64,000 bases of DNA. It comes from Paracoccaceae bacterium. GTDB lineage: Bacteria > Pseudomonadota > Alphaproteobacteria > Rhodobacterales > Rhodobacteraceae. The stretch covers positions 1 to 64,000 of the forward strand of contig JAFIEF010000004.1 in NCBI GenBank assembly GCA_020832655.1, written 5' to 3'. Within the stretch, counting starts at the first letter, position 1. Each line of letters opens with the position of its first letter. The notes beneath the pieces are model-generated. The model saw nothing but the letters and a program-made list of their open reading frames with translations, did no database searches and was not told the DNA's origin. A program made the translations under genes and the position numbers. This document shows, piece after piece, positions 538 to 13,922 of this stretch.

Positions 538-556
538 TTTGGCTCCGGCGGTAGGG
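538..556. repeat. Left att-site repeat (attL): TTTGGCTCCGGCGGTAGGG
   Basis: Perfect 19-bp match to the sequence overlapping the 3' end of tRNA-Asn at 13846-13864. Confidence 0.88.
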
Positions 557-919
557 TCCGCAGCAAAACCAGAAAAAACCTTTTGGAATCAACGGTTGGC
601 CCTCTGCGAAACAACCGCCGGACCCGTATTGTGCCCAATCTTTTGTGACAGTCAAGGGCACAAGCCTTACGCACTCTCGGGGAATCGACGCTGAAAAAGT
701 AAGGAACATAGCAAGAACCTTTTCGCTCTCTCGTCGAGTTCTCGTCGCAGCACAAGAGATAGTGTCGTGTGCAGGGCGTGAGACCAACTTGCATTGCTGC
801 CTTCCTGATTTACGCTCAATCCTCCGAGTTTCGGGATTGACCCATATCTTGGGACAAGCAAGAATCCACAAGCCAGCACACGGCATAGACAGCAAGAGAT
901 TACAGATGAGGAACAAGGA

Positions 920-1273
920 ATGAACAACCCACAAGCCTCGATGGCCGAGTTGAGAAAGATAAAAGCAAAGGGCGTGAAATATCGGGGTCCCTATCAGGGA
1001 CGCTGGTTTCACGTCGGGGTTGCATTTGAGTGCGATGATGTTGCTGCAACAATGCGGTTGGGTGCGGCTCTTGCAAAATCGAAAACGCTCGCTCCACTCT
1101 TGAAAAATGAGATACATACTGATAACTCGGGTGACCAAATCCTTGTCTCATTTCACGCCCTCCACGTATACCCAGACGGGCCAAAAGTTGAGAATGACAG
1201 GTTGCAGTTTATGCTGGCCGAGTCTTTTCAAGCACAAAGTGAGTGGCAAGAACGGAACAAGGGTAGGTTATAA
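920..1273 (+). CDS. Hypothetical protein (117 aa)
   Basis: ORF track; lies between attL and the convergent res gene; no family recognised. Confidence 0.5.
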   Translation: MNNPQASMAELRKIKAKGVKYRGPYQGRWFHVGVAFECDDVAATMRLGAALAKSKTLAPLLKNEIHTDNSGDQILVSFHALHVYPDGPKVENDRLQFMLAESFQAQSEWQERNKGRL

Positions 1274-1325
1274 GCCAATCCCTTGGTCGGCTATTCCTTA
1301 TGCTGCAACGCGGGGAATGCAAACA

Positions 1326-3986
1326 TCACCGAGCGATGGTCGCCTGAATGAGGTCGAACCTTCGTTCGGTCGGCATACAAAACAGACATTGCCCACCGCT
1401 GGCTTCTGCCCAAGCGTTCCCAATCTGTCGCTTGACTTCCTCTGCTTCGTAAAACTGTTTGCCCTTGTATTCGACGACAAGCGTTCTCCCGTCTTGAAGC
1501 ATTACAACGAAGTCGGGAAAGAACTTTCGATGAGGTAGTTGTAGCCAGAATGCGTTTCTTTTGTCGTCAAGATTACGAATCCAATAAAGAACCTCATCAA
1601 GTCGGTCGATGTGAACGGCACAATCAAACTCTTCATCACTGTCGAAGTCACCGACGAGAGGTGTGTAATGTTTAGAAAACTTCGTCCCACCCGAATAGAT
1701 TTTGTTAGGGGCATAGGTCGCCTCGTCAAAAATCACCGAGTGTTCCGCACTTATGGCAAAGTCTTGGGCGTTTGCAGCAAATAGAGCATTGTAACGACCG
1801 ACTTCCCTTTCCGACCGCAGGTCTCGAATAAGGTCGGCCAATGCCCGCCGTAGGTCGTAGCGATTACGAGCCAGCACATCGAGCGGCGTTCCCTCCGATA
1901 TCAATGCGTCAAGGGCTTTTGAAATGAACACGATAGCACTTGGCTTTGTTATATCTGGGTGATGAATGCCGGAGTCGAGCCAGTTGGCAAGCCGTGCTGG
2001 TGTCCAGACTGGCTCCCGCACAATCCCGTTGAGTTGTCCTTGCAGGTTTCGAACAAATGATATCTCCAACTTGCCCTTGTCGGTGACATCAATGTTGCCT
2101 GTCTGGCTTCGGTCGATAATCTTGAAACGCTCGGTTATGGGTGACGGGTCGCATTCGTCAAGCCGCCAAGGCAAGTCAAGGAAATGCTCCTTGCTGAACA
2201 GTTCAAGTTCGCCCTGATTTCGGAATGCCAACAATGGCACAATGAAAGGGGGCTTGTCGTCTTCGTCTGCTGCCGATGTCTGGAAGTTATTCGACCTGGC
2301 ATAAAGGCGGTCAATCGTTCTGCTGACATTCGGCACGGTCGCCAGACCAAGGTGAAGAATGTTGCGGCTTTCTCGGGACATCGGCCCTGTATAGGCCAAG
2401 GTTCTTTTTTCAGGGTCAAAAGAAACACGGGAACGAACAGAGGGCGGCAAGCGGTTGATTGCGTCGGAAAAAATCTCCGGCGACACATCTTCTTGTGGCA
2501 GAGGGTCCGATTCAAATCGCTGTTGTGCTGCGGCCTCGGCAAATCCAAGATTGTGCTGCGGGGCAATCAAGGTTTCGGCTTCAAGGCGGTTGAAGCCCGC
2601 TCCGTCCACAAGCCCGTTTTTCAACTGCTGGGCAGTCTCGTCAAAACTCTTGGACACGATGAACGCATAAGACTGGTTCAATGCGTCTCGCCGTTTGCTG
2701 CGGGCTTTCGGCATTCGCAGCACTCGGCCCAATATCTGCTCAACGGCAACCGCCGACACTTGGTCGGCCAGTGAACACAGAACATAGGCAAAGGGGCAAT
2801 CCCAACCTTCTTTCAGTTTTGCCACTGTTATGATGAAGCGAACAGGGCAATCCTTCGCTTCAATGTTGTCAATGCTGTCGAGGTCTTTGCGTGGTCCGGT
2901 ATGAACTGCGATTTGTTCTTTCGGAACGCCTGCCTCTTCGACGAGGTGCTTTTCCAGCACTTCCCAAGTCAAGCGGTGTGGGTCTTTCGCACTGGCACTT
3001 TGTGCCTGAAACAGAATGATGGGGCGAATATACTCGCCCGTTTCCTGCTCTTCGGCCTTGGCGGCTTCTTCCAGCATTCGCTGGCAATCCCGTGCCGCTC
3101 CTACGCTCTTTTTCCAATCGCCGTCCGTGGTCAAGCGGATTGGCATTTTTATCATCTCTTCTGCCTTCAACTCGGCGGCAGACACAGAATAGAGAATGTT
3201 CGAGGCGTGTTTGTCTCGCTCGGGCTTATGTTCGGTCTGCGGGGTGGCCGTAAGTTCGAGAATGAGCGACGGATTGAAGCGGGCAAGCGTGCGGAAAGAC
3301 AAGTCGCTCCGACTGTTATGAGCCTCATCGACAATGACCATTGGCCGATGAAGTTTCAGCAGGTTGGCAAGCGAAGCGATTGGGCGGCGGGTGCCGTCCA
3401 TAATATCGAGGTTTGCCATCTGCTCTACGGTCAAGCCCTCGAAATGGTCCATCAACGCCCCTGCGTCTTCATAGACCTTCAAGCCCTCGGGATTTTCCTT
3501 TCCTTTGTCATCTTCACGGCGGAAAGATTGAATCGTGGACACGATGACAACTGCCCCGCCCAATGCGTCGGCTCGTGACATCGACAAGGCTTCGGCCTTG
3601 GTTATCACGGTGAAGTTGCGGTTGAAGTCTTTCATCAGTGCCGCCCGATATGGGTGGCCTTCTGTCTTCAATGCCTGAATGGTCTGGTCCAGAATGGCGG
3701 TCGAAGGGACAAGCCACAAAACCATCGGGTTCGGGGTTTGCAGCAGGTCACGGGCGGCAATGCCGATGGCATAGGCCGCAAGCAATGTTTTCCCGCCGCC
3801 TGTCGGCACTCGAAGGCAGACATATGGTGTGCCATCGGCCACGGCGGGGGCGTGGCGAAAGGGCAGATTTGTGGCCTTGTAGAAAGCCAGATTTGCCCCG
3901 TGCTCTTGGGTGTCTCGCAGATAAGATGACAGGCGTTCAAGGGAAAGCCGCTGATATTCCTTCAACTCGAAGTTGGTCGCCGCCAT
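1326..3986 (-). CDS. Type III restriction enzyme, Res subunit (DEAD/DEAH helicase plus PD-(D/E)XK-like C-terminus)
   Basis: Walker A 'RVPTGGGKT', 'VDEAHNSR', 'GWDCPFAYVLC', 'EQILGRVLRMP', C-terminal 'FFPDFVVMLQDGRTLVVEYKG'. Adjacent to a mod gene. Confidence 0.92.
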   Translation of the reverse strand: MAATNFELKEYQRLSLERLSSYLRDTQEHGANLAFYKATNLPFRHAPAVADGTPYVCLRVPTGGGKTLLAAYAIGIAARDLLQTPNPMVLWLVPSTAILDQTIQALKTEGHPYRAALMKDFNRNFTVITKAEALSMSRADALGGAVVIVSTIQSFRREDDKGKENPEGLKVYEDAGALMDHFEGLTVEQMANLDIMDGTRRPIASLANLLKLHRPMVIVDEAHNSRSDLSFRTLARFNPSLILELTATPQTEHKPERDKHASNILYSVSAAELKAEEMIKMPIRLTTDGDWKKSVGAARDCQRMLEEAAKAEEQETGEYIRPIILFQAQSASAKDPHRLTWEVLEKHLVEEAGVPKEQIAVHTGPRKDLDSIDNIEAKDCPVRFIITVAKLKEGWDCPFAYVLCSLADQVSAVAVEQILGRVLRMPKARSKRRDALNQSYAFIVSKSFDETAQQLKNGLVDGAGFNRLEAETLIAPQHNLGFAEAAAQQRFESDPLPQEDVSPEIFSDAINRLPPSVRSRVSFDPEKRTLAYTGPMSRESRNILHLGLATVPNVSRTIDRLYARSNNFQTSAADEDDKPPFIVPLLAFRNQGELELFSKEHFLDLPWRLDECDPSPITERFKIIDRSQTGNIDVTDKGKLEISFVRNLQGQLNGIVREPVWTPARLANWLDSGIHHPDITKPSAIVFISKALDALISEGTPLDVLARNRYDLRRALADLIRDLRSEREVGRYNALFAANAQDFAISAEHSVIFDEATYAPNKIYSGGTKFSKHYTPLVGDFDSDEEFDCAVHIDRLDEVLYWIRNLDDKRNAFWLQLPHRKFFPDFVVMLQDGRTLVVEYKGKQFYEAEEVKRQIGNAWAEASGGQCLFCMPTERRFDLIQATIAR

Positions 3987-3987
3987 A

Positions 3988-5625
3988 TCAAAGCCCCTCG
4001 ATCTGGTAAGGGATTTGCTTGAAGACCACGCCCTCTGCCTTCAAGCGTTCGGGGGTGACGGTCGTTCCTTCGGCATAGACAACCCGCATACCTTCAAAGC
4101 CTTCGGGCGGGGGCGGCAGGTCGGCCAGTGCGGCAGGGGTCAAGACATTGCCAGAGGCTTCGCGGGCAAAGCCTTCCTGCCCTGGCGAAAACAGCAGATA
4201 GACGGCCTTCTCGGCGTGCTTGCCAAGAAATGATGTCTGTCCCGTCGCCTTGGTCGGAATGGGCACGCCAGTTTCGGCAAAGAAGATGTGAGCGGCAAGG
4301 TCGGAAAAGGTTACGCCGCCGTCAATATCTCCGAACTCGTTGAAGAGTGGCACGCCAAGGTGACAGAAACGGAAGCCGCCACCGAGTGCTTCGACGGGCT
4401 TGGTTGGGTCGCCACCTTTGTCATAACCTTCGACCGAACGCCGCAAGCGAGTGGCCGTAACTTCTCTTGCAATCTTTTCTTCCATTTCAATCAAAATGAA
4501 GCGTCGATTGCCGCCGTCCTGTTTGTTGAGGTCCAACACGGCGTGGCCCGTCGTGCCTGAACCGGCGAAAGAATCTAAAATGAGGTCTTCTGGACCTGCT
4601 CCGATTTTCAGCAAATGGGCAATCAATGTGGTCGGTTTCGGTGTCGCAAAAACTTCATCTTGTCCGTGAAAGATTTCAAGAATCTGCCGCTTTGCCGACT
4701 GGTTGTGTCCTACATCTGCGTGAAGCAATACCGTCCGAGGAACAACGCCGCCTACATCGGAAAGGAACCTCTTGAATCGTGGAGAGGTATTCCTTCCAGA
4801 TTTCCCCCAAAAAATACGATTTTCTTCAACGTGCTTTTCGTATGTCTCTCTGGGGTAACGCCAGACGGCAGTAGGTGATGGCCAAATCTCTTCTCCCGTG
4901 TTCGGGTTCACAATTGCATACCAACCATTAGGTCGTTCTTGCTTGGACTTATTTGAGGTGTAGTTGTCTGATTGCCAGCGTCCTCGTGGGTCATCATCAG
5001 GATTTTGATACTTCCCGTCCTGAGCCGATGTTCTTTCTAGTTTGTTGGGTGACCACAGATTCTTCTGTTTTGCATAGACCAAGATGTAGTCGTGGTCATC
5101 ACTGAAAAATTTAGCGTCGTTTGCTGGTGCATATTTCTTTTGCCAAACCAAGCAAGCGATGAAGTTGTTTGTCCCAAAAACCTCATCAAGAAGAACTCGC
5201 AACCGATGGTGTTCATCATCATCAATACTTACAAAAATAACGCCATCTTCCCGCAAGAAGTCACGCAACAAGCGAAGTCGGGGATACATCATACAAAGCC
5301 ATTTATCGTGGCGGGACAGGTCTTCGGCTTCCTTGCCGACGACCTTTCCAAGCCACGAACGGATTTCAGGACTGTTCACATTGTCATTGTAAACCCAACC
5401 CTCATTCCCTGTATTGTAGGGCGGGTCGATGTAAATGCATTTCACCTGTCCAGCGTAATAGGGCAACAGGGCTTTCAGGGCTTCGAGGTTGTCGCCCTGC
5501 ACCAGCAGGTTGCCTGCGTCGGGGTCGCCTGCCGACAACTCTCCATCACAATGAACAAGGCGATACGGCACTTCTTGGTGGTGGTGTTCGACCGCCGATT
5601 TTCCAATCCAGTTCAATGATGGCAT
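3988..5625 (-). CDS. Type III DNA-methyltransferase, Mod subunit (N6-adenine)
   Basis: 'IYIDPPYNTGNEGWVYNDN' (DPPY catalytic motif) and 'ILDSFAGSGTTGHAVLDLN' (SAM-binding FxGxG motif). Stop codon is adjacent to the res start. Confidence 0.93.
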   Translation of the reverse strand: MPSLNWIGKSAVEHHHQEVPYRLVHCDGELSAGDPDAGNLLVQGDNLEALKALLPYYAGQVKCIYIDPPYNTGNEGWVYNDNVNSPEIRSWLGKVVGKEAEDLSRHDKWLCMMYPRLRLLRDFLREDGVIFVSIDDDEHHRLRVLLDEVFGTNNFIACLVWQKKYAPANDAKFFSDDHDYILVYAKQKNLWSPNKLERTSAQDGKYQNPDDDPRGRWQSDNYTSNKSKQERPNGWYAIVNPNTGEEIWPSPTAVWRYPRETYEKHVEENRIFWGKSGRNTSPRFKRFLSDVGGVVPRTVLLHADVGHNQSAKRQILEIFHGQDEVFATPKPTTLIAHLLKIGAGPEDLILDSFAGSGTTGHAVLDLNKQDGGNRRFILIEMEEKIAREVTATRLRRSVEGYDKGGDPTKPVEALGGGFRFCHLGVPLFNEFGDIDGGVTFSDLAAHIFFAETGVPIPTKATGQTSFLGKHAEKAVYLLFSPGQEGFAREASGNVLTPAALADLPPPPEGFEGMRVVYAEGTTVTPERLKAEGVVFKQIPYQIEGL

Positions 5626-5850
5626 TCTTGGCTCCCTGTTCTTGTTGGCACCTTGTCCCGTCCGGCGGTAATGTTCAAGCCGCTATCGGGACACCGGGCA
5701 GAGCGATGTTCGGCAAAGCCTTGGTTTTGTTGAACAGTTGCGAATGAACAAGCGGATGTGTCACGCAGACACGCGGCATCTGCTCTTTGCAACGCTCAAC
5801 GAACGATTGTAGCAGACCAGCACATACGCCGATGAACATTCCCTTCACAC

Positions 5851-6177
5851 TTGACATACCCCTCTCCGCTGGTCAGGATTTCGGACAACGAGGGTAGGCT
5901 CCTGGGTTTTGCTACAATGGAAATGCTGTTCGCGATGTTAATTGCAAAACTCCTCGGAATTGCGGGTCTTGGCGGATTATTATCTGGGCTCTTCATTCGC
6001 TCCTTGCCGCTCGCTTTGAGTGGTGGGGTTGCAGCAGGATTTATTGGCCAAATCGTATTGAGTAGCCTACGAAGCTCGAGTGTTGGTTTATTGAGTTGGA
6101 TTATGGCTATTGTTGCAGGGATTCTAGCAGCTGCAATCGGGTGGCTTGTGCGTGGTAGGAAAATCTCCGCAAAATGA
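5851..6177 (+). CDS. Small multi-TM membrane protein (internal start near 5917 possible)
   Basis: Hydrophobic, Gly-rich segments 'MLIAKLLGIAGLGGLLSGLFI...GGVAAGFIGQIVLSSL...GIMAIVAG-type'. Resembles GlsB/YeaQ/YmgE-type membrane proteins only in composition. Confidence 0.5.
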   Translation: MTYPSPLVRISDNEGRLLGFATMEMLFAMLIAKLLGIAGLGGLLSGLFIRSLPLALSGGVAAGFIGQIVLSSLRSSSVGLLSWIMAIVAGILAAAIGWLVRGRKISAK

Positions 6178-6686
6178 GCAAGATGATATGGCGTAATGAA
6201 AACTTAGATGGTGCGAAATCTTCATTTCTGTATATAGCCAACTTGGCTAAACAAATTCGAGGTTCTTTTTTTCTATTCCAGAAAGGGCACAAAAATATGT
6301 CTGCGTCGCCACTCCCCATAAATGATTATGACGTAGCAGCAATAAGCAATCAAGTGCAAAGATGGCAATCAAACGGGCTCTTTGCGAGTTTCGACATCGC
6401 TGGTCGCTCTAATGGTGTAGCACTAATTATTCTTGAAAACTGTCTTTCTTTAAGTTACGGCTTCGCGGCGTTAGAAATACGAAAGTTCGGTATCAAACGC
6501 TTTATTGGAAAGAGATCTTATTGGGTAATTCAACTTTACGCCGGCGATAGTGCTACGGGACCGTTCCACAAAAAAGGCTGTGTCACCGGAAATATGCTTG
6601 TGAGTGCTCTCGCAGAAGCGGAGTTAGATATTAGGCACAACTTCATCAGCAAACTATCAATGGAATGGGCAACAAATTCAGTATAA
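6174..6686 (+). CDS. Hypothetical protein (170 aa), ATGA-overlapped with the upstream membrane protein
   Basis: Start codon overlaps the stop of ORF 5851-6177 (aATGA); no family recognised. Confidence 0.5.
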   Translation: MSKMIWRNENLDGAKSSFLYIANLAKQIRGSFFLFQKGHKNMSASPLPINDYDVAAISNQVQRWQSNGLFASFDIAGRSNGVALIILENCLSLSYGFAALEIRKFGIKRFIGKRSYWVIQLYAGDSATGPFHKKGCVTGNMLVSALAEAELDIRHNFISKLSMEWATNSV

Positions 6687-6884
6687 CTCTTGTTTATTGC
6701 TATGACATTTGTCTGCTGACAAAATTTTACCTGCGTTGCGGAGCAAAAGAGGGTTGGAAACAGATTACCCTTTGCCAAAAAGAGAGCCTGTCGATAGAAA
6801 GTTAGTAATCTTGTGGTGAAAGTCCTTTCTATTGGGCTACACACATTTTTAAGTGACCTATGAAGGACAGAGAGCGGAGGCGGT

Positions 6885-7163
6885 ATGAAAGAATCGCGAC
6901 GGTTCGAAATCAATAATGAAATCGAAACTCTGCAAAGAGGGATGGACCCGAATGGAAACTTCTGGATAGGACTTGGAGCCTTTGGTATTATTGCGACTGC
7001 ACTCGGACTTCAGGGTGATGGTGTGGCGGCAGGTCTTGGGATTGCTGTTTCAATCGGGCTTTTGTTGTATGGGTTCGCTGCAAAGGATAAGGTCAAAAAG
7101 TCGGAAGAAAAGATTAGGATTTTGCAGAAGACACTCGACCTCGCAAAGCCTAACGAGAAATGA
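6885..7163 (+). CDS. Small membrane protein (92 aa, two predicted TM helices flanked by charged helices)
   Basis: 'FWIGLGAFGIIATALGLQ' and 'VAAGLGIAVSIGLLLYGFAA' hydrophobic stretches, upstream RBS-like 'agcggaggcggt'. Confidence 0.5.
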   Translation: MKESRRFEINNEIETLQRGMDPNGNFWIGLGAFGIIATALGLQGDGVAAGLGIAVSIGLLLYGFAAKDKVKKSEEKIRILQKTLDLAKPNEK

Positions 7164-7225
7164 AAGAAGTAAGGATTATCGAATAAAGAGCCTGATTCTT
7201 GTTTGAGATTTTTTGGTTGTGGCGG

Positions 7226-8122
7226 CTATTCAGCCGCCACATATCCAACGTGTTTCTCAAGTGCGTAAATAAAATCCACGGCTTTCTGGGCTTCACTTGC
7301 TGCACGGAAAATCGCTTTCTTGTCTTCCTTCATCGCTGCAAGCCAACCTTCGATATATGCCCCGCTCTGGGCAAAGTCGGGGGTCAAGCCAAGCGTTACC
7401 GACAGAATGCAGTTTCCGATTTCGGCAATCAGTTCTTCAAAGGCATATGCCTTGCGGTCGGAAAACCGTTCAAAGCGTGCAAGGCGGGTGCTGGCTCCTG
7501 TCCAGTGGGTGAGTTCGTGGGCAAGTGTGCCATAATACCCGTTGGCGTTGTGAAATGTCTGAATCAACGGCATATGAATCAGGTCTTTGGTAATGTCGTA
7601 ATAGGCTCGGGGCTTTGATGTCGCTTCGATCTTGGCACCTGTTGCGGCAAAAAACGCGTCCAGATGGGCGACAGGCTCGGTGCCAAGGTCTGCGGCGGGT
7701 TCTGGAATGTCGTAATATTCGGCGGGCAATCCGTCTATCTGGTCGGCGTTGAATACCCGATAGCCTTTTGCATAGGGGATTACCTTCTCTTCGCCGTTCT
7801 CGTCTTCTTTCTCGACGGTGCCAAACTTCACAACGGTTGCCGATTTCTCGCCTTTGCGGACATTGCCGCCAAGTTCCTTTGCCTGCTTGAAGGTCAACCA
7901 GCGTGCCGATGTGTAGCCCTTGGCCGACGCGATAGACCACAACACAAGAATGTTGATTCCCCGATATGGCTCGCCGTTGTGACGCAAAGGCAGACTCGCC
8001 CCCTTGCTGCTGCCTGTCCAGGGCTTCCGCCACGGTGGGCAACCTGCTTCGATGGCCTGCATAAGTTGGTCGGTGATTTGCTGGTGAAGGTCAAAAGTCG
8101 CTGCCGCCATTGTCAACTCCAT
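7226..8122 (-). CDS. ardC: ArdC-family antirestriction protein (N-terminal ssDNA-binding plus zincin-like domain)
   Basis: N-terminus 'DLHQQITDQLMQAIEAGCPPWRKPW...NGEPYRGINILVLW', 'GTLAHELTHWTGASTRLAR' (HExxH), 'YAFEELIAEIGNCIL'. Confidence 0.9.
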   Translation of the reverse strand: MELTMAAATFDLHQQITDQLMQAIEAGCPPWRKPWTGSSKGASLPLRHNGEPYRGINILVLWSIASAKGYTSARWLTFKQAKELGGNVRKGEKSATVVKFGTVEKEDENGEEKVIPYAKGYRVFNADQIDGLPAEYYDIPEPAADLGTEPVAHLDAFFAATGAKIEATSKPRAYYDITKDLIHMPLIQTFHNANGYYGTLAHELTHWTGASTRLARFERFSDRKAYAFEELIAEIGNCILSVTLGLTPDFAQSGAYIEGWLAAMKEDKKAIFRAASEAQKAVDFIYALEKHVGYVAAE

Positions 8123-8169
8123 TGTGCTTGGAAGAGCAATGTGAGTTCTTTCCCCAAAGGCCAAAGCCG

Positions 8170-8515
8170 TCTAACTTCCGCCTTGGGCGGGACATCTCTG
8201 CTCTTCCGTTTGAAATGCCCATACATTTCAAAGGGCAGAGCAGAGAGGGCATAGCCCGACCTGCGGTCTGGCAGGCACGGTGCAACTGGGTGAAGCCCGT
8301 GAAAACGGGAAGGAACCGCCCGCTTGCGGGTGGAAGGAACCGGTTTTCTCGGGCGGAACTGCTGCAACGCAGCACTTGCCGGTTGTGGCGTGCCTGCCAG
8401 ACTGGTAGGCGGAACATTCTAAAACGAAAGGATTCAAAGCAGGGTGAATGGCAATCTGCCATTGAGTGCTGCTGCGGCTATTTCACGCTCAATCCCGCCG
8501 TGAGGGATTTCGATT
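8170..8515 (+). ncRNA. Candidate structured non-coding RNA / DNA structural region between ardC and the relaxase gene
   Basis: Hairpins read by eye: 8178-8190; 8195-8247 (10+9 bp); 8248-8258; 14-bp closing stem 8267-8280/8390-8403; 8297-8310 with GAAA loop; 8317-8334 with CUUG loop; 8361-8375. Terminator-like 8492-8520. No supported coding gene. Confidence 0.5.
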
Positions 8516-8520
8516 TCTTA
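8492..8520 (+). terminator. Possible intrinsic terminator of the structured region
   Basis: AATCCC-gccgtga-GGGATT followed by tcgatttctt. Confidence 0.4.
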
Positions 8521-8746
8521 TATGAAACCTCTCTTCGGGCTTTTTATATTCCAGAAATACTCCCATATCTTTTTTAGCCGAACGGACGCTCCCCCGTGAC
8601 CTCCCAAGGCAAGGGAAAGATTGAAACAAATCCTATATGGCCATAAAATGGGTTTGCGAAGATTTTTCCCGTCCTTCCCGCCGCATAGGCGGCTTCGAAA
8701 GTCGAATGAAACTCCTGTTTGGCCCTCTGTCTCCAGAGGGCCACTT

Positions 8747-9589
8747 TCATTCCCGCTGTCGCTGTTCACCGCCATTTGCGTCAACGGCTTTACTGTTTTG
8801 CTTCATACCTACATCTGCCAAGTTCAGGATTTCATCAATGCTCTGTTCGATATCATTGCCATCAGTGAAGAAATCGAACACTTCTTTTGCGGCCTTGTCT
8901 TTCGCACGGACGGCACGCCTTTCCGCCCCTTCGTGTTTTGTTGGCTTCCGGCGAAGTCCACGCTCCTTGAAACTTCGCCATTCAACGCCATTCTCACCGT
9001 GTTCTTTTGCTGTTTCATTCAGGACATCGGCAATCCGTTTTCGCCACCTTTTCGGTGCACCCCTCTCGTTGAATCGTTGCACGTTCCGCCGTCGGATTCT
9101 TGTGGCGTTTCCGCCGCTCCTGATTATGGCAGAGTGTCTGCTTTCAACTCCGTCCACGGTGATGAAGTGCAGATGAGCATTGTTCTCCTTGTCGATGTGC
9201 TGAACGATGAACACCGAAGCCTCGGAACCCTCTGGTGCCAGTTCTTTTGCCAGTTGGGACATAGCGGCTTTCACGGTTTTCTCACCCCAAGAGTTGGGAA
9301 GTGATATTATTCCAGTTGTTGCAATGCGTCTGCCAACTCTGCCACCTTTACCCGCTTCCGCACGAAATCTTTTTCGCAACATAAGCCGAGCCTCTTTCGG
9401 CGTTCGGACTTCATCGCCATCTTCGTTTTTCAGGCCCTGCCAGCACATCAATCCAGCGGCATTCTCTCTGGCGATATAGTTCAACGCTCCATAGCACCTT
9501 TTCAGCGGGTCTGTCTTTCCAAGGCTCTTACTCTTTGCCGCTGGACTGCTTGATATACCCTTAAATTTTGTTGTCAGTTCGAGTCCCAT
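8747..9589 (-). CDS. Relaxase/mobilization protein (MOBQ/MobA-like HUH endonuclease)
   Basis: 'FIVQHIDKENNAHLHFITVDG' matches the HxDxxNxHxH relaxase motif; 'CYGALNYIARE' near the N-terminus. Confidence 0.75.
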   Translation of the reverse strand: MGLELTTKFKGISSSPAAKSKSLGKTDPLKRCYGALNYIARENAAGLMCWQGLKNEDGDEVRTPKEARLMLRKRFRAEAGKGGRVGRRIATTGIISLPNSWGEKTVKAAMSQLAKELAPEGSEASVFIVQHIDKENNAHLHFITVDGVESRHSAIIRSGGNATRIRRRNVQRFNERGAPKRWRKRIADVLNETAKEHGENGVEWRSFKERGLRRKPTKHEGAERRAVRAKDKAAKEVFDFFTDGNDIEQSIDEILNLADVGMKQNSKAVDANGGEQRQRE

Positions 9590-9626
9590 TTTTCCCTCGC
9601 AATCCAGAGGAAGTCACGCATTTTGA

Positions 9627-9668
9627 GTGCGAGGTTTATGCCTATGGGCATAAACCTCCTTGTGCGAC
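9627..9668. other. Candidate oriT: 12-bp-arm inverted repeat flanked by GTGCG motifs
   Basis: GAGGTTTATGCC(tatg)GGCATAAACCTC at 9631-9658; gtgcg at 9627-9631 and 9662-9666; immediately upstream of the relaxase start. Confidence 0.5.
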
Positions 9669-9759
9669 TAAACTCTTTCTATCTTCGAGGAATCTATTGC
9701 CTTCTTTGTTCCATTCCAAAAAATGACCTAAATGAACTCCAACAAATGAGGAGTGCAGT

Positions 9760-10212
9760 ATGTGGTATGATGTTGAACTTGCGAATTTTTCAAGAGAAAC
9801 ACGGGCGGCTTTGTCCCTATTTCTTCCACTCCCCAACGGTATGAGTGCCAGAGATTTTGACCGTGCTGCCCGGAATAATCGGCTTTTCGGTATTGCCCAA
9901 GCGTGGGAAAACACTCTGCTTTCCTCTTGTCGTTTGCTTGTCCTTTCGGTTCCTTCCGGGTCTTTCAGTGATACGCTTCGTCACGCCAGAGAAGTTGCCG
10001 AAAACTCCGATGGCCTTGGTCGCAACGCTCTCGAAAGGCTTGACCCGACGCTTTCTCTGCTGAAAGCCGAGTTTACCAGAAACGACCGTGCCCGCCGTGC
10101 ATTGCGGCGGGCTTTTCTGCGGCCTCCATATGCAGAAGCCCTGTCCAAAAGAAAAGGCGGCGGGGCTACGCCACAAAGGCAACGCCCCGCTCCTGGTGTC
10201 ATCAGGACTTGA
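9760..10212 (+). CDS. Hypothetical protein (150 aa)
   Basis: ORF track; begins upstream of and converges with the RepA-like gene; no family recognised. Confidence 0.45.
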   Translation: MWYDVELANFSRETRAALSLFLPLPNGMSARDFDRAARNNRLFGIAQAWENTLLSSCRLLVLSVPSGSFSDTLRHAREVAENSDGLGRNALERLDPTLSLLKAEFTRNDRARRALRRAFLRPPYAEALSKRKGGGATPQRQRPAPGVIRT

Positions 10213-11353
10213 CCCGTATCGAACCGTCATCGGCCTTTTCGACCAATCCTTGTTTTGACAAGGTGTCAATCGCTCTCGCGATTGCTTTTCGCAGACTGTC
10301 GGGTTTGTCGAGTAAGGCGTTGAACGGACCAGTGACCTTGCTTCGCAGTGATGTGGCAGTATGGAAAACACCGCTTTGCTCTTGCTCTAACTGCCGAAGA
10401 GTTTGCAGCAAATGCTGAACCCGTGCGTCGGTGTCGGTTGCACCTGTTCCCTTGGGCTTGTTCACCATTGGTGTTGCCCCGATAACAGGTTGGGCAACAG
10501 GCAATGTAATCGGGTCGCCATCAGTATCTTGACCAACTTCAACGGCGGCAATTTTCAAGAACAGAGGCTCGCCCCGTGCAAGGCTCCGCTGCTTCTTTTG
10601 ATTGACGGCAATCACCATCTCGCCTTCCGTGGTGCGGGCTTCATTCAAAACAAGCAAAGTATCGCAGTTGCCAATCATTGCAGAAGAGCCACGCGGCTTT
10701 TCAGGGTCGCTATGCGTGGCGTGATGAACAATCATCACGTGAGCGTTGTGTTCGAGGGCGAGTTTTTGGGCATTGCTGATGGCTTTGCCCATATCGCGGG
10801 ACGAGTTTTCATCACCATCACCAAGGCACAAGTTCAGGGTGTCGAAGACAAGGAAGATTTTGTCTAACGCTCGTGCCTTCATATACTCGCAGAGTTCACG
10901 CCCAAACCTTTCCATCATCTCGCTATCAGTCAAATCAACTGATGAAGGAATGATATCGAACGGCAGGGCGTCGCTTCGTCGCTTGCCCAGCACTGCTGAC
11001 CCCCTTTCGGCAACGCCGATAGGGTCTTCTGCGGCAACATAGAGCGTTCCCGCTTGGGTTACTTTTCTGTCGCCAATGGCGTCACCGAGGGCGGCGTGAC
11101 CTGCAATCATCGCAATGACAGAGGTCTTGCCCGTGTTGGGCGGGCCTGCGAGCATACTAACCTGGCCGAACAAGAGCAGATCTTTCACCAGATATGCTCT
11201 CGGTGCCATACTGCAAAGCGTGTTGGCCGAGATGAGTTCCTTGCCCAAAAAGAGCGGCTTGGTTTCACCAAATGCTGGCGTGGCTTGCCCATCGTCGCCA
11301 GCGTCGATGAGCGTGGGAATGTCGAATGCGGTCGTTGAAGTTGGTTTGTTCAC
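10202..11353 (-). CDS. RepA-like AAA/RecA-fold ATPase (plasmid replication helicase type)
   Basis: Walker A 'LAGPPNTGKTSVIAMIAGHAALG', 'AGTLYVAAEDPIGVAERG', 'KIFLVFDTLNLCLGDGDENSSRDMG', 'VMIVHHATHSDPEKPRGSSAMIG'. Confidence 0.8.
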   Translation of the reverse strand: MNKPTSTTAFDIPTLIDAGDDGQATPAFGETKPLFLGKELISANTLCSMAPRAYLVKDLLLFGQVSMLAGPPNTGKTSVIAMIAGHAALGDAIGDRKVTQAGTLYVAAEDPIGVAERGSAVLGKRRSDALPFDIIPSSVDLTDSEMMERFGRELCEYMKARALDKIFLVFDTLNLCLGDGDENSSRDMGKAISNAQKLALEHNAHVMIVHHATHSDPEKPRGSSAMIGNCDTLLVLNEARTTEGEMVIAVNQKKQRSLARGEPLFLKIAAVEVGQDTDGDPITLPVAQPVIGATPMVNKPKGTGATDTDARVQHLLQTLRQLEQEQSGVFHTATSLRSKVTGPFNALLDKPDSLRKAIARAIDTLSKQGLVEKADDGSIRVKS

Positions 11354-11486
11354 GGCGGAACCTCCTGTTTTTTGCCAAGGCCCCGTGCCCTAGCCGAAAA
11401 GAGGTGGGAGATTTCGCCGCATTACAAGGGCAGAAGACGAACAAAAGTGAACAAAAGCAGAAAAAAAGCACTAATCGAGGAAAAGA

Positions 11487-11533
11487 CACGGACGGACGGA
11501 CACCCCCTTAGGGGGAGTGTCCGTCCGTCCGTG
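11487..11533 (-). terminator. Long inverted repeat downstream of the integrase gene, terminator-like
   Basis: 17-bp perfect arms CACGGACGGACGGACAC / GTGTCCGTCCGTCCGTG plus C/G extension, 5 bp past the integrase stop; T-rich on the minus strand beyond the arm. Confidence 0.6.
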
Positions 11534-11537
11534 ACAT

Positions 11538-13724
11538 CTATTTTTCCAGCGGTTTTTCAATACCCTTGTCGGGTTCATCTCCGACAGGCGGGGGAGTTGA
11601 AGAAACCAGTCGCAAGGTCTGCGGCGTTTGTGAGAACATCATACGCCCGAAGGGCGGCAGAACCCCTGCATAGTTGATATTGTTCTTGTCCACGGCGTTT
11701 TTCAGGTTTTCCATCGTAAGCCCTGCACGCAGATAAGCCGTATAGGTGACCTCGGTATGCTGATGGCCCATCAGTATCTTCCGCACATAGTCTTCAACGC
11801 CGGCACGGGTAAGACGAACGTGGAACTCGGTTCGCAATGCGTGAAAATCAAGAAAGTCGTCCGTGATACCAACGCTGCGACGGTAATAGCCGAATCGCTT
11901 GCTCATTATGGCACTGAATGTTCCTTTCGATTTTGAGCGGGTCATATGAGGAAAGAGGCGAGACATTCCCTGCTGCCTGCGGATGTCCACCAGTTCAGGA
12001 AGGCCGAGGTCAAGCAAGGCGTTGTGAAGTGGCACACGTCGAATACTGCTTTCGGATTTGGTGGTTTGCGACCCGATTTCGTTCTGAACGGCGACATAGA
12101 AAATACCGTCTTCTTTGCCGAAGTCCCGAATCCGCAACTGCAAGATCTCTTCCAGTCGAAGCCCTGCAAACATAGCAATAAGCGGTGCCCAGAACAGTGG
12201 TTCATCGGGCGAGTCCAGTGGCTCACGGAAGACCTTCGTTCGAAGCAAGGTGTATATCTCTTCACCCCACCCCTTCCGGGCCACACGGTTCTCTGTCCGT
12301 TTGCGGCGATTTACCTCTGCCTCGGTCAACACCCGCCCCTTGAACGGATTTGATTCAATCAAGCGACGAGAAAGGGCGTAGTCGAGAATCGCTTTTAGTG
12401 CCGTCTGGTGGCGTTGGACAGTCCTCGCCGAAATGCGTTTTACCCGTGCTGCGGCCAATCGGTCTTCGATTTCTGCTGGCGGCAACCCTTGCTCGGCCAG
12501 TTTGCGTTCCATTTCATTTCGTGTCTCGACTTCATCACTGTCGATGTCTTCGACAACTTCCCTTGCCGTTCGCTGGTCATTTGCCGATTTTCCGTGGTTC
12601 TTGGGCAATTTCTGCACAAGAGCGTTGAAGTCGAGAATGTCGTCTTTGTTGATGTCGCGAAGTGGCAAATCCCCGACTATATCAGTGAACAATCTCACTG
12701 AAGCCCGAGCATTCCCAAGTGAAGATTTCTTGAAACTTTCGCCAACCCCTTCATAGGGCGTTTCATCTTCCTTTTTCAGCGTATAGCCTTCGCACCGTAG
12801 TTTGAGATACTGCTCGGCGAAAGCAGAGAAGGCAAGGTCGCTGTATTGTGGCTCCTGGATTGCGGATTTTGTGCTTCGGGTGTTGGCTTCCGGCAATCCA
12901 AGCCGTTTGGCAGAGTCATATAGGCTTCTGGCAATGCGGCGAGCGGCAGGAAGTTCTTGGGAAATATTTCTTCCCTCTTTTTCGCAGGTGGTGATGAAGT
13001 CATTCAGCAAGGCTCCTAGCCCGCTTGCGAAGTCCTCGATACGCTCCACCCCATCTTCATCATCAGGGTCAATAAGGCGAGATTCGGTCACATCGAGATA
13101 TGCGGTTTTGCGGTTTTCACTCTCGATGATGTTTTCTATCACCCCCAAACACTCCGCTCGGGTCTTTTCTTCCCAAGCGTAATACTCCTGTTCTTCTGGT
13201 GTTCGCTCTTCGGGTGGAGTCTCTTTGATACTGATATACTGTATTGGTGCCGGGGTCGTTCGCTTGAACATATCATCATAAGGCAACTGGGCTATTCCGA
13301 GTGACTGCCGCAGTTCCGCGTCAATGGTGGCAAACACTCGCTCCCGCACCTCTGGGGTCAATGTTGCAACATTCATCGTCCGGTAATGTGTGATGTATTT
13401 GCGGAATCCTTCGGTCAGCGTGAGTGCCATTTTGTCGATAAGGTCTTGGGCAGGGTGGTCGTTCATCGCTGTTATTTCCGTCTCAAACTTCGACCAGGCA
13501 CGCTCAAAGTGTTCGGCAATCTTGGCGGCAAGAAGGCGTGCTTCCCTCACTGATGAGGTTTGCAGGCTAACCGCAAGATGACCCCGTGCTTGTGCGGTCA
13601 CTCTGTTGTCTTCGTAACTGCCTGAAAAAACAGGAAGTTGGCCTTGTGAGATGATGATAGCGGGGTGACGGCGGCGAAACCACCATATTCTTCCCCGTTT
13701 TGAGAGATAGGCAATGCGTCCCAT
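11538..13724 (-). CDS. Site-specific tyrosine recombinase (integrase); ORF track extends the start to 13766
   Basis: 'FAGLRLEEILQLRIRDF' (Arg I), 'HALRTEFHVRL' (HxxR), 'LMGHQHTEVTYTAYL' (Tyr). Located next to the tRNA-Asn att site. Confidence 0.9.
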   Translation of the reverse strand: MGRIAYLSKRGRIWWFRRRHPAIIISQGQLPVFSGSYEDNRVTAQARGHLAVSLQTSSVREARLLAAKIAEHFERAWSKFETEITAMNDHPAQDLIDKMALTLTEGFRKYITHYRTMNVATLTPEVRERVFATIDAELRQSLGIAQLPYDDMFKRTTPAPIQYISIKETPPEERTPEEQEYYAWEEKTRAECLGVIENIIESENRKTAYLDVTESRLIDPDDEDGVERIEDFASGLGALLNDFITTCEKEGRNISQELPAARRIARSLYDSAKRLGLPEANTRSTKSAIQEPQYSDLAFSAFAEQYLKLRCEGYTLKKEDETPYEGVGESFKKSSLGNARASVRLFTDIVGDLPLRDINKDDILDFNALVQKLPKNHGKSANDQRTAREVVEDIDSDEVETRNEMERKLAEQGLPPAEIEDRLAAARVKRISARTVQRHQTALKAILDYALSRRLIESNPFKGRVLTEAEVNRRKRTENRVARKGWGEEIYTLLRTKVFREPLDSPDEPLFWAPLIAMFAGLRLEEILQLRIRDFGKEDGIFYVAVQNEIGSQTTKSESSIRRVPLHNALLDLGLPELVDIRRQQGMSRLFPHMTRSKSKGTFSAIMSKRFGYYRRSVGITDDFLDFHALRTEFHVRLTRAGVEDYVRKILMGHQHTEVTYTAYLRAGLTMENLKNAVDKNNINYAGVLPPFGRMMFSQTPQTLRLVSSTPPPVGDEPDKGIEKPLEK

Positions 13725-13845
13725 TCTCTGGCTCCGGACTTTTGGGCGCAGCAAAAACCACGCCATTGGGCACAGAGGGCAGATTCACGGGAACGGCACG
13801 GGGCGGAATCCCCAAGCCATTGATTTCCCAAAAGATTATTTAGAT

Positions 13846-13864
13846 TTTGGCTCCGGCGGTAGGG
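13846..13864. repeat. Right att-site repeat (attR), overlapping the tRNA-Asn 3' end
   Basis: TTTGGCTCCGGCGGTAGGG identical to 538-556. Confidence 0.88.
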
Positions 13865-13922
13865 ATCGAACCTACGACCAATTGATTAACAGTCAACTGC
13901 TCTACCGCTGAGCTACGCCGGA
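13848..13922 (-). tRNA. tRNA-Asn (anticodon GTT), CCA encoded
   Basis: Reverse complement TCCGGCGTAGCTCAGCGGTAGAGCAGTTGACTGTTAATCAATTGGTCGTAGGTTCGATCCCTACCGCCGGAGCCA folds as a standard cloverleaf. Confidence 0.97.

Follow-up and report, generated by a model that had tools for sequence, protein, structure and literature searches.

Promoters that act on single-stranded DNA (ssDNA) have been described in the F plasmid, in ColIb-P9 and in their BLAST relatives (PMC9849209, PMC11541004). Early expression of leading genes in recipients requires Frpo1 and Frpo2 of F (PMC9849209), and anti-defence islands commonly contain Frpo relatives (PMC11541004). A different system, EGeRS1 of the Bacillus plasmid pLS20, comprises 420-750 bp of GC-rich DNA with many inverted repeats and without a constitutive promoter, located directly upstream of the ribosome-binding site (RBS) of ardC and of four other establishment operons (PMC8708921). 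Its authors rejected an ssDNA promoter because the transferred strand of pLS20 is the non-template strand (PMC8708921).

The structured region described here resembles both systems. As in Frpo/ssi, a long imperfect fold lies on the strand that is both transferred and template, shortly upstream of anti-restriction or establishment genes; more than one copy can occur per plasmid (as do Frpo1 and Frpo2 in F, PMC9849209), the folded strand is more stable than its complement, and no ordinary promoter is apparent in the gap to the gene. The F leading region also contains DUF932 and ParB-like genes, as found among the genes that follow our family. Unlike Frpo, this family is GC-rich and multi-branched, with conserved purine internal loops and no identified -35/-10 elements; it occurs almost only in Rhodobacterales and lies far from the leading edge on small MOBQ plasmids. 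Moreover, R1, our covariance model of the folded core, finds no match in the leading region of F, where Frpo1 and Frpo2 lie. EGeRS1, compared here by its description, is likewise a conserved GC-rich structured region just upstream of establishment-operon RBSs, in several copies per plasmid; it differs in that the transferred strand of our family is the template and the core spans approximately 240 bp rather than 420-750 bp. A covarying multi-helix structure is also typical of the structured RNAs in Rfam, and no Rfam 15 family matched the structured region at the gathering threshold.

The structured region and its mobilizable element

The window, that is, the whole 64,000-nt stretch of DNA analysed here, is part of contig C111 in a genome of 3.24 Mb. 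Identical 19-bp direct repeats (538-556 and 13846-13864) bound a tRNA-integrated mobilizable element of approximately 13.3 kb (538-13864). Within it, the relaxase gene and ardC are both encoded on the minus strand, and the structured region separates the 3′ end of the former from the start of the latter (Table 1). ardC would be the gene driven by the folded element, and no sigma70-like promoter was seen in the leader (8114-8175) that precedes it.

As a separate observation, a type III-like restriction-modification pair accompanies ardC within this one complete mobilizable element (538-13864). A sister element of similar organisation is found in G136, which represents another genus of the same taxonomic family.

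Table 1. Positions of the mobilizable element's genes and of the parts of the folded element in the window
Feature	Position	Strand	Evidence or detail
Left-end direct repeat of mobilizable element, TTTGGCTCCGGCGGTAGGG	538-556		Identical 19-bp repeat
Cargo, type III-like restriction-modification pair	1326-5625	-	res-like 1326-3986, mod-like 3988-5625
ardC (ArdcN + MPTase-PolyVal)	7226-8113	-	Pfam E 2.5e-38 and 2.2e-43
Leader, folded element to ardC start codon	8114-8175	-	GGAG Shine-Dalgarno
Conserved folded element, family core	8176-8414	+	~75%-identity homologues, covariation, strand asymmetry
P0 5′ arm, TTCCGCC (partner 8408-8414)	8176-8182	+	Both P0 arms in 59/63 distinct copies
P1 hairpin	8195-8247	+	Fold and covariation
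P2 hairpin, GGGC-ATA-GCCC	8247-8257	+	C(RNA)G-type triloop in relatives
P3 long arm carrying branches P4-P6	8260-8409	+	Covariance model R1
P4 region (helices 4 and 5 of the covariation analysis): A/T-rich helix 8301-8306/8343-8348, purine internal loop (GGGAAGGAACCG / GGAAGGAACCGG), P5	8301-8348	+	
P6 hairpin	8360-8374	+	Covariation, helix 6
P0 3′ arm, GGCGGAA	8408-8414	+	Both P0 arms in 59/63 distinct copies
Less conserved 3′ hairpins, including terminator-like 8491-8509	8437-8511	+	Aligned hairpins, sequence variable in relatives
MobA/MobL relaxase	8747-9589	-	Pfam 2.8e-11
Candidate oriT, GAGGTTTAT-N10-ATAAACCTC then CTTGTGCG^AC	9631-9668	+	Nick position inferred from MOBQ architecture
AAA_25 ATPase of mobilizable element	10202-11353	-	Domain search
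Tyrosine integrase of mobilizable element	11538-13766	-	Domain search
Right-end direct repeat, 3′ end of tRNA gene 13851-13922(-)	13846-13864		Repeat and tRNA position

Fold, folded strand and distribution of the family

Folding of 8170-8530 exceeded that of dinucleotide shuffles on both strands and with both RNA and DNA parameters (z = -7.9 for RNA and -9.8 for ssDNA on the plus strand; -8.9 and -8.1, respectively, on the minus strand), and 0 of 100 shuffles matched the fold for any strand or chemistry. Energy alone therefore names neither the strand nor the chemistry.

Comparison of homologues revealed a common architecture in which closing helix P0 (TCCGCC/GGCGGA) is accompanied by P1, the small P2, and the long arm P3 with P4, P5 and P6. 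The family also conserves a purine internal loop (GGGAGGGAACCG / GGGAGGAACCGG), and the A-T pairs of the P4 helix swap freely among copies. Across 53 distinct copies, in an alignment that had been fitted to the covariance model, 93.9% of cells pair and 37 of the 48 pairs show compensatory double-sided changes; covariation reached 0.403, compared with 0.131 for the shuffles (0/500) and no more than 0.09 for slid controls. An independent MAFFT/RNAalifold analysis of 21 copies recovered 26 pairs with double changes. Covariation, whose absence had been named beforehand as a possible refutation of a structured module here, is strongly present.

A sequence-only reading of the locus had proposed a non-coding, strand-asymmetric module favouring the plus strand, and both the covariation and the G.U excess in homologues establish it as real. 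The seven or more hairpins that it listed are present, with coordinates agreeing within about 2 nt; the separate hairpin at 8195-8247 corresponds to P1, and both ggaaggaaccg motifs are in place. The closing stem, given as 14 perfect base pairs, is perfect over 13 bp (8267-8279/8389-8401) and is extended by G-C and G.T pairs. The hairpin with a GAAA (GNRA) loop forms at 8296-8309 in the window copy and is peculiar to it: in its place, relatives pair GAAAAC (8301-8306) with GTTTTC (8343-8348), with compensatory A-T swaps. The terminator-like hairpin also exists, at 8491-8509; it lacks a conserved T-tract in relatives, and its score is near chance. P0, a closing helix additional to those listed, bounds the element.

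A coding reading was rejected, in keeping with the earlier non-coding assignment. The open reading frames across the element (155 aa on the plus strand, 123 aa on the minus strand) have no Pfam hit, and the copies differ by non-triplet indels. Membership in a known RNA family, which the sequence-only reading did not recognise either, finds no support in Rfam 15, in which the sub-threshold matches fall to unrelated entries: families of microRNA type, one CRISPR repeat, one leader and one lncRNA.

The choice between strands is settled by the wobble pairs. G.U cells outnumber A.C cells by 187 to 23 in 53 copies and by 512 to 52 in 132 copies; since G.U is tolerated and A.C is not, the window's plus strand is the strand selected to fold. 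R1 gives the reverse strand 12-24 bits where the forward strand scores 160-200. Furthermore, in all 55 copies compared as ssDNA, the element strand is more stable than its complement, by a mean of 14.8 kcal/mol, and the T-strands of F-plasmid Frpo1 and Frpo2 show the same sign of difference. In 58 of 63 copies, P2 carries a C(RNA)G triloop, namely AAA, GAA, GCA, ACA, ATA, GTA or AGA. Hairpins of DNA are favoured by C(GNA)G loops, and the triloops closing P2 thus hint at DNA over RNA.

Homologues of 8176-8416, at approximately 75% identity, were found in 38 plasmid records and in genomes of the window's taxonomic family; more diverged copies used as queries retrieved 92 and 96 plasmid records, in which a single plasmid could have as many as four places. 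R1 matched 25 of 298 genomes of the window's taxonomic family. A class-wide R1 scan matched 2 of 385 genomes, one of them the window's own, indicating that the family is largely Rhodobacterales. Combining a DNA pattern scan of GTDB genomes with R1 added many more named Rhodobacterales and a few others, including Roseibium, a Hoeflea MAG and an Erythrobacter MAG. In all, over 120 distinct copies belong to the family, the majority of them carried by plasmids of Rhodobacterales. The folded element is a real, widespread and previously unnamed family; we found no description of it in the open-licence literature, which is no proof of novelty.

Several individual records deserve mention. Diverged copies occur at L067 and L068 in G403, from a different alphaproteobacterial family, and a near-perfect copy (200 bits) occurs in a Verrucomicrobia MAG (L086, JAAAPI010000404), probably on a mis-binned plasmid contig. 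The record PP438431.1 (L025), named 'Synechococcus phage Ssp-JY41', combines the element with an ArdC-like gene, a RepA-like initiator and ParA, and looks more like a Rhodobacterales plasmid than a phage. A reverse transcriptase family gene (L033:17068-18885), close to one of the several copies that a Leisingera plasmid carries, suggested a retron reading, which we did not adopt. Short BLAST matches at L013-L015 were discarded, as the structure model does not confirm them.

Placement before establishment genes and transfer polarity

The distance from P0 to the next start codon on the opposite strand is nearly fixed, with a median of 44 bp and 86 of 107 gaps within 40-52 bp across 14 protein clusters; ardC contributes 67 of the 107 measurements, so that one lineage dominates these statistics. 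Genes at this near-constant gap include ardC, DUF3768, DUF932, DUF4942, DUF3560, ParB-like and several uncharacterised genes. The MGLDQYAY family shows gaps of 60-86 bp, the window's ardC lies at 66 bp rather than 44, and only about 13-17 bp separate the element from a ParB_N gene at L067. Most of the driven-gene starts are preceded by a strong Shine-Dalgarno sequence. On the plus side, the nearest ORF start lies at a median of 345 bp (quartiles 192-723), and this spacing is not fixed. A near-fixed gap to unrelated start codons on the opposite strand implies that the fold lies on the template strand; a conserved mRNA leader fold is thereby ruled out.

Up to four copies occur per plasmid in the same orientation, each before a different establishment gene. 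In Cereibacter azotoformans pORIO3, the model starts of four such copies lie 121-123 bp from four unrelated start codons.

The 44-bp gap, which includes the Shine-Dalgarno sequence, leaves no room for an ordinary promoter. Sigma70-like promoters are not enriched in the element-to-gene gap, whether read toward the gene or along the plus strand. A sigma70 hexamer scan recognised no convincing -35/-10 pair either, a result that is uninformative because the scan also misses its positive controls, F Frpo1 and Frpo2.

Some copies have no recognised driven gene, namely L026 and those beside tRNA-Arg genes. The latter (L148:5597-6010, L109 and L183) adjoin tRNA-Arg 3′ ends, and their common 64-nt leader stops abruptly; they are perhaps the ends of integrated islands, and in the circular form the driven gene would then lie beyond the attachment site. 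In another set of copies (L031:29761, L105, L133, L135, L140 and L153), a small conserved ORF (MSDR...DWAAAHQRQT) follows about 20 bp after the element.

An element acting on incoming ssDNA must have its fold on the transferred strand, and the two strands agree wherever a nick motif could be read without ambiguity. With all nick positions inferred from motifs, the strand predicted to be transferred is the folded one at all 26 loci bearing the MOBQ motif TAAGTGCG^CCCT. The same holds for five plasmids with the MOBP motif (TA/TT)TCCTG^C beside mobC (pORIO6, p.D, pPZ03, pYEE5 and the Paracoccus MC1862 plasmid) and for a Dinoroseobacter plasmid with the VirD2-type motif ATATCCTG^CC, where the element orientation was taken from L022. 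This comparison spans four or five oriT lineages, which are few for a test of polarity. The nick sites at L025 and L026 are palindromic and hence ambiguous.

In the window, the strict MOBQ core is absent, and a hairpin-plus-GTGCG candidate oriT, with its predicted nick at 9666/9667, is found instead. Both the window and the G136 sister element carry TTGTGCG(A/C)C directly after an inverted repeat on the element strand, a MOBQ-like arrangement; in G136 the inverted repeat is followed by GTTGTGCG^CC. The candidate oriT implies that the window's transferred strand would be the plus strand, the same polarity as in the plasmids. On the small MOBQ plasmids, and in the window as judged by its candidate oriT, ardC would enter late rather than in the leading region.

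A putative single-strand promoter and its alternatives

Judged from sequence comparison, the region is probably a cis-acting ssDNA control element, and a single-strand promoter from a new sequence family is its likeliest form. Folding on the template strand, fixed placement and the match to the transferred strand are as a single-strand promoter predicts. The Frpo-like option, one of two that the sequence-only reading had left undistinguished, is the one favoured by the fixed spacing to opposite-strand genes and by the coincidence of folded and transferred strands.

We infer recruitment of RNA polymerase, action on ssDNA in the recipient and silence in double-stranded DNA (dsDNA), in the following sequence. 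During conjugation, the window's plus strand would enter the recipient as ssDNA, where 8176-8414 would fold into its multi-helix structure and recruit host RNA polymerase, possibly with a helper. Transcription would then run leftward, with the transferred strand as template, through the short Shine-Dalgarno leader into ardC, so that anti-restriction protein would be made ahead of the second strand. Synthesis of the complementary strand would dissolve the structure and switch the promoter off.

More tentatively, the family may constitute a separate class of ssDNA control, a possibility that we rate somewhat below even. Its multi-branched DNA fold with defined internal loops would be read as a three-dimensional structure by RNA polymerase or by a plasmid or host factor, rather than through -35/-10 elements, and would serve as a plug-in cassette before early-conjugation genes in Rhodobacterales.

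The other option, toward which the sequence-only reading had leaned, is a plus-strand structured non-coding RNA (ncRNA) that would diverge from ardC and either act in trans or serve as an antisense regulator. The complex multi-helix fold, with its conserved purine-rich internal loops and multiloop nucleotides, is typical of structured RNAs and carries G.U pairs on the plus strand; the covarying plus-strand structure itself is common to the RNA and ssDNA readings. Many copies also contain a weak plus-strand TGACA-N15-17-TGAAAT match, but the window copy lacks it, and transcription from it would begin inside the fold. No conserved plus-strand promoter was found in the gap and no conserved terminator in the copies, the GNRA loop is not conserved, and an ncRNA leaves unexplained the fixed spacing to minus-strand genes, the multiple same-orientation copies and the transferred-strand match. 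We regard this RNA as unlikely.

Slightly less likely still is an ssi site, at which complementary-strand synthesis would be primed by primase, PriA or RNA polymerase recruited to the folded transferred strand. Such a role agrees with the identity of folded and transferred strands, and the title of Masai and Arai 1997 (reference 6 in PMC11541004) describes Frpo as promoter and primer-RNA site alike. Priming accounts neither for the fixed spacing to start codons of unrelated genes nor for the several copies per plasmid; the same element could combine priming, as a second function, with the promoter.

An element that regulates or insulates ardC as dsDNA or as a minus-strand mRNA leader, as proposed for EGeRS1 of pLS20, whose placement is close to that of this family (PMC8708921), is highly improbable, given that selection acts on the template strand rather than the mRNA sense and that the transferred strand is non-template in pLS20 (PMC8708921) but template here.

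If the single-strand promoter reading is true, the ssDNA promoter strategy would also operate in Rhodobacterales plasmids, with an unrelated structure. The family would then offer many natural compensatory variants for dissecting how RNA polymerase starts on ssDNA. R1 would, moreover, flag by position establishment or anti-defence genes of unknown function, among them DUF3768, DUF4942, DUF3560 and the MGLDQYAY family.
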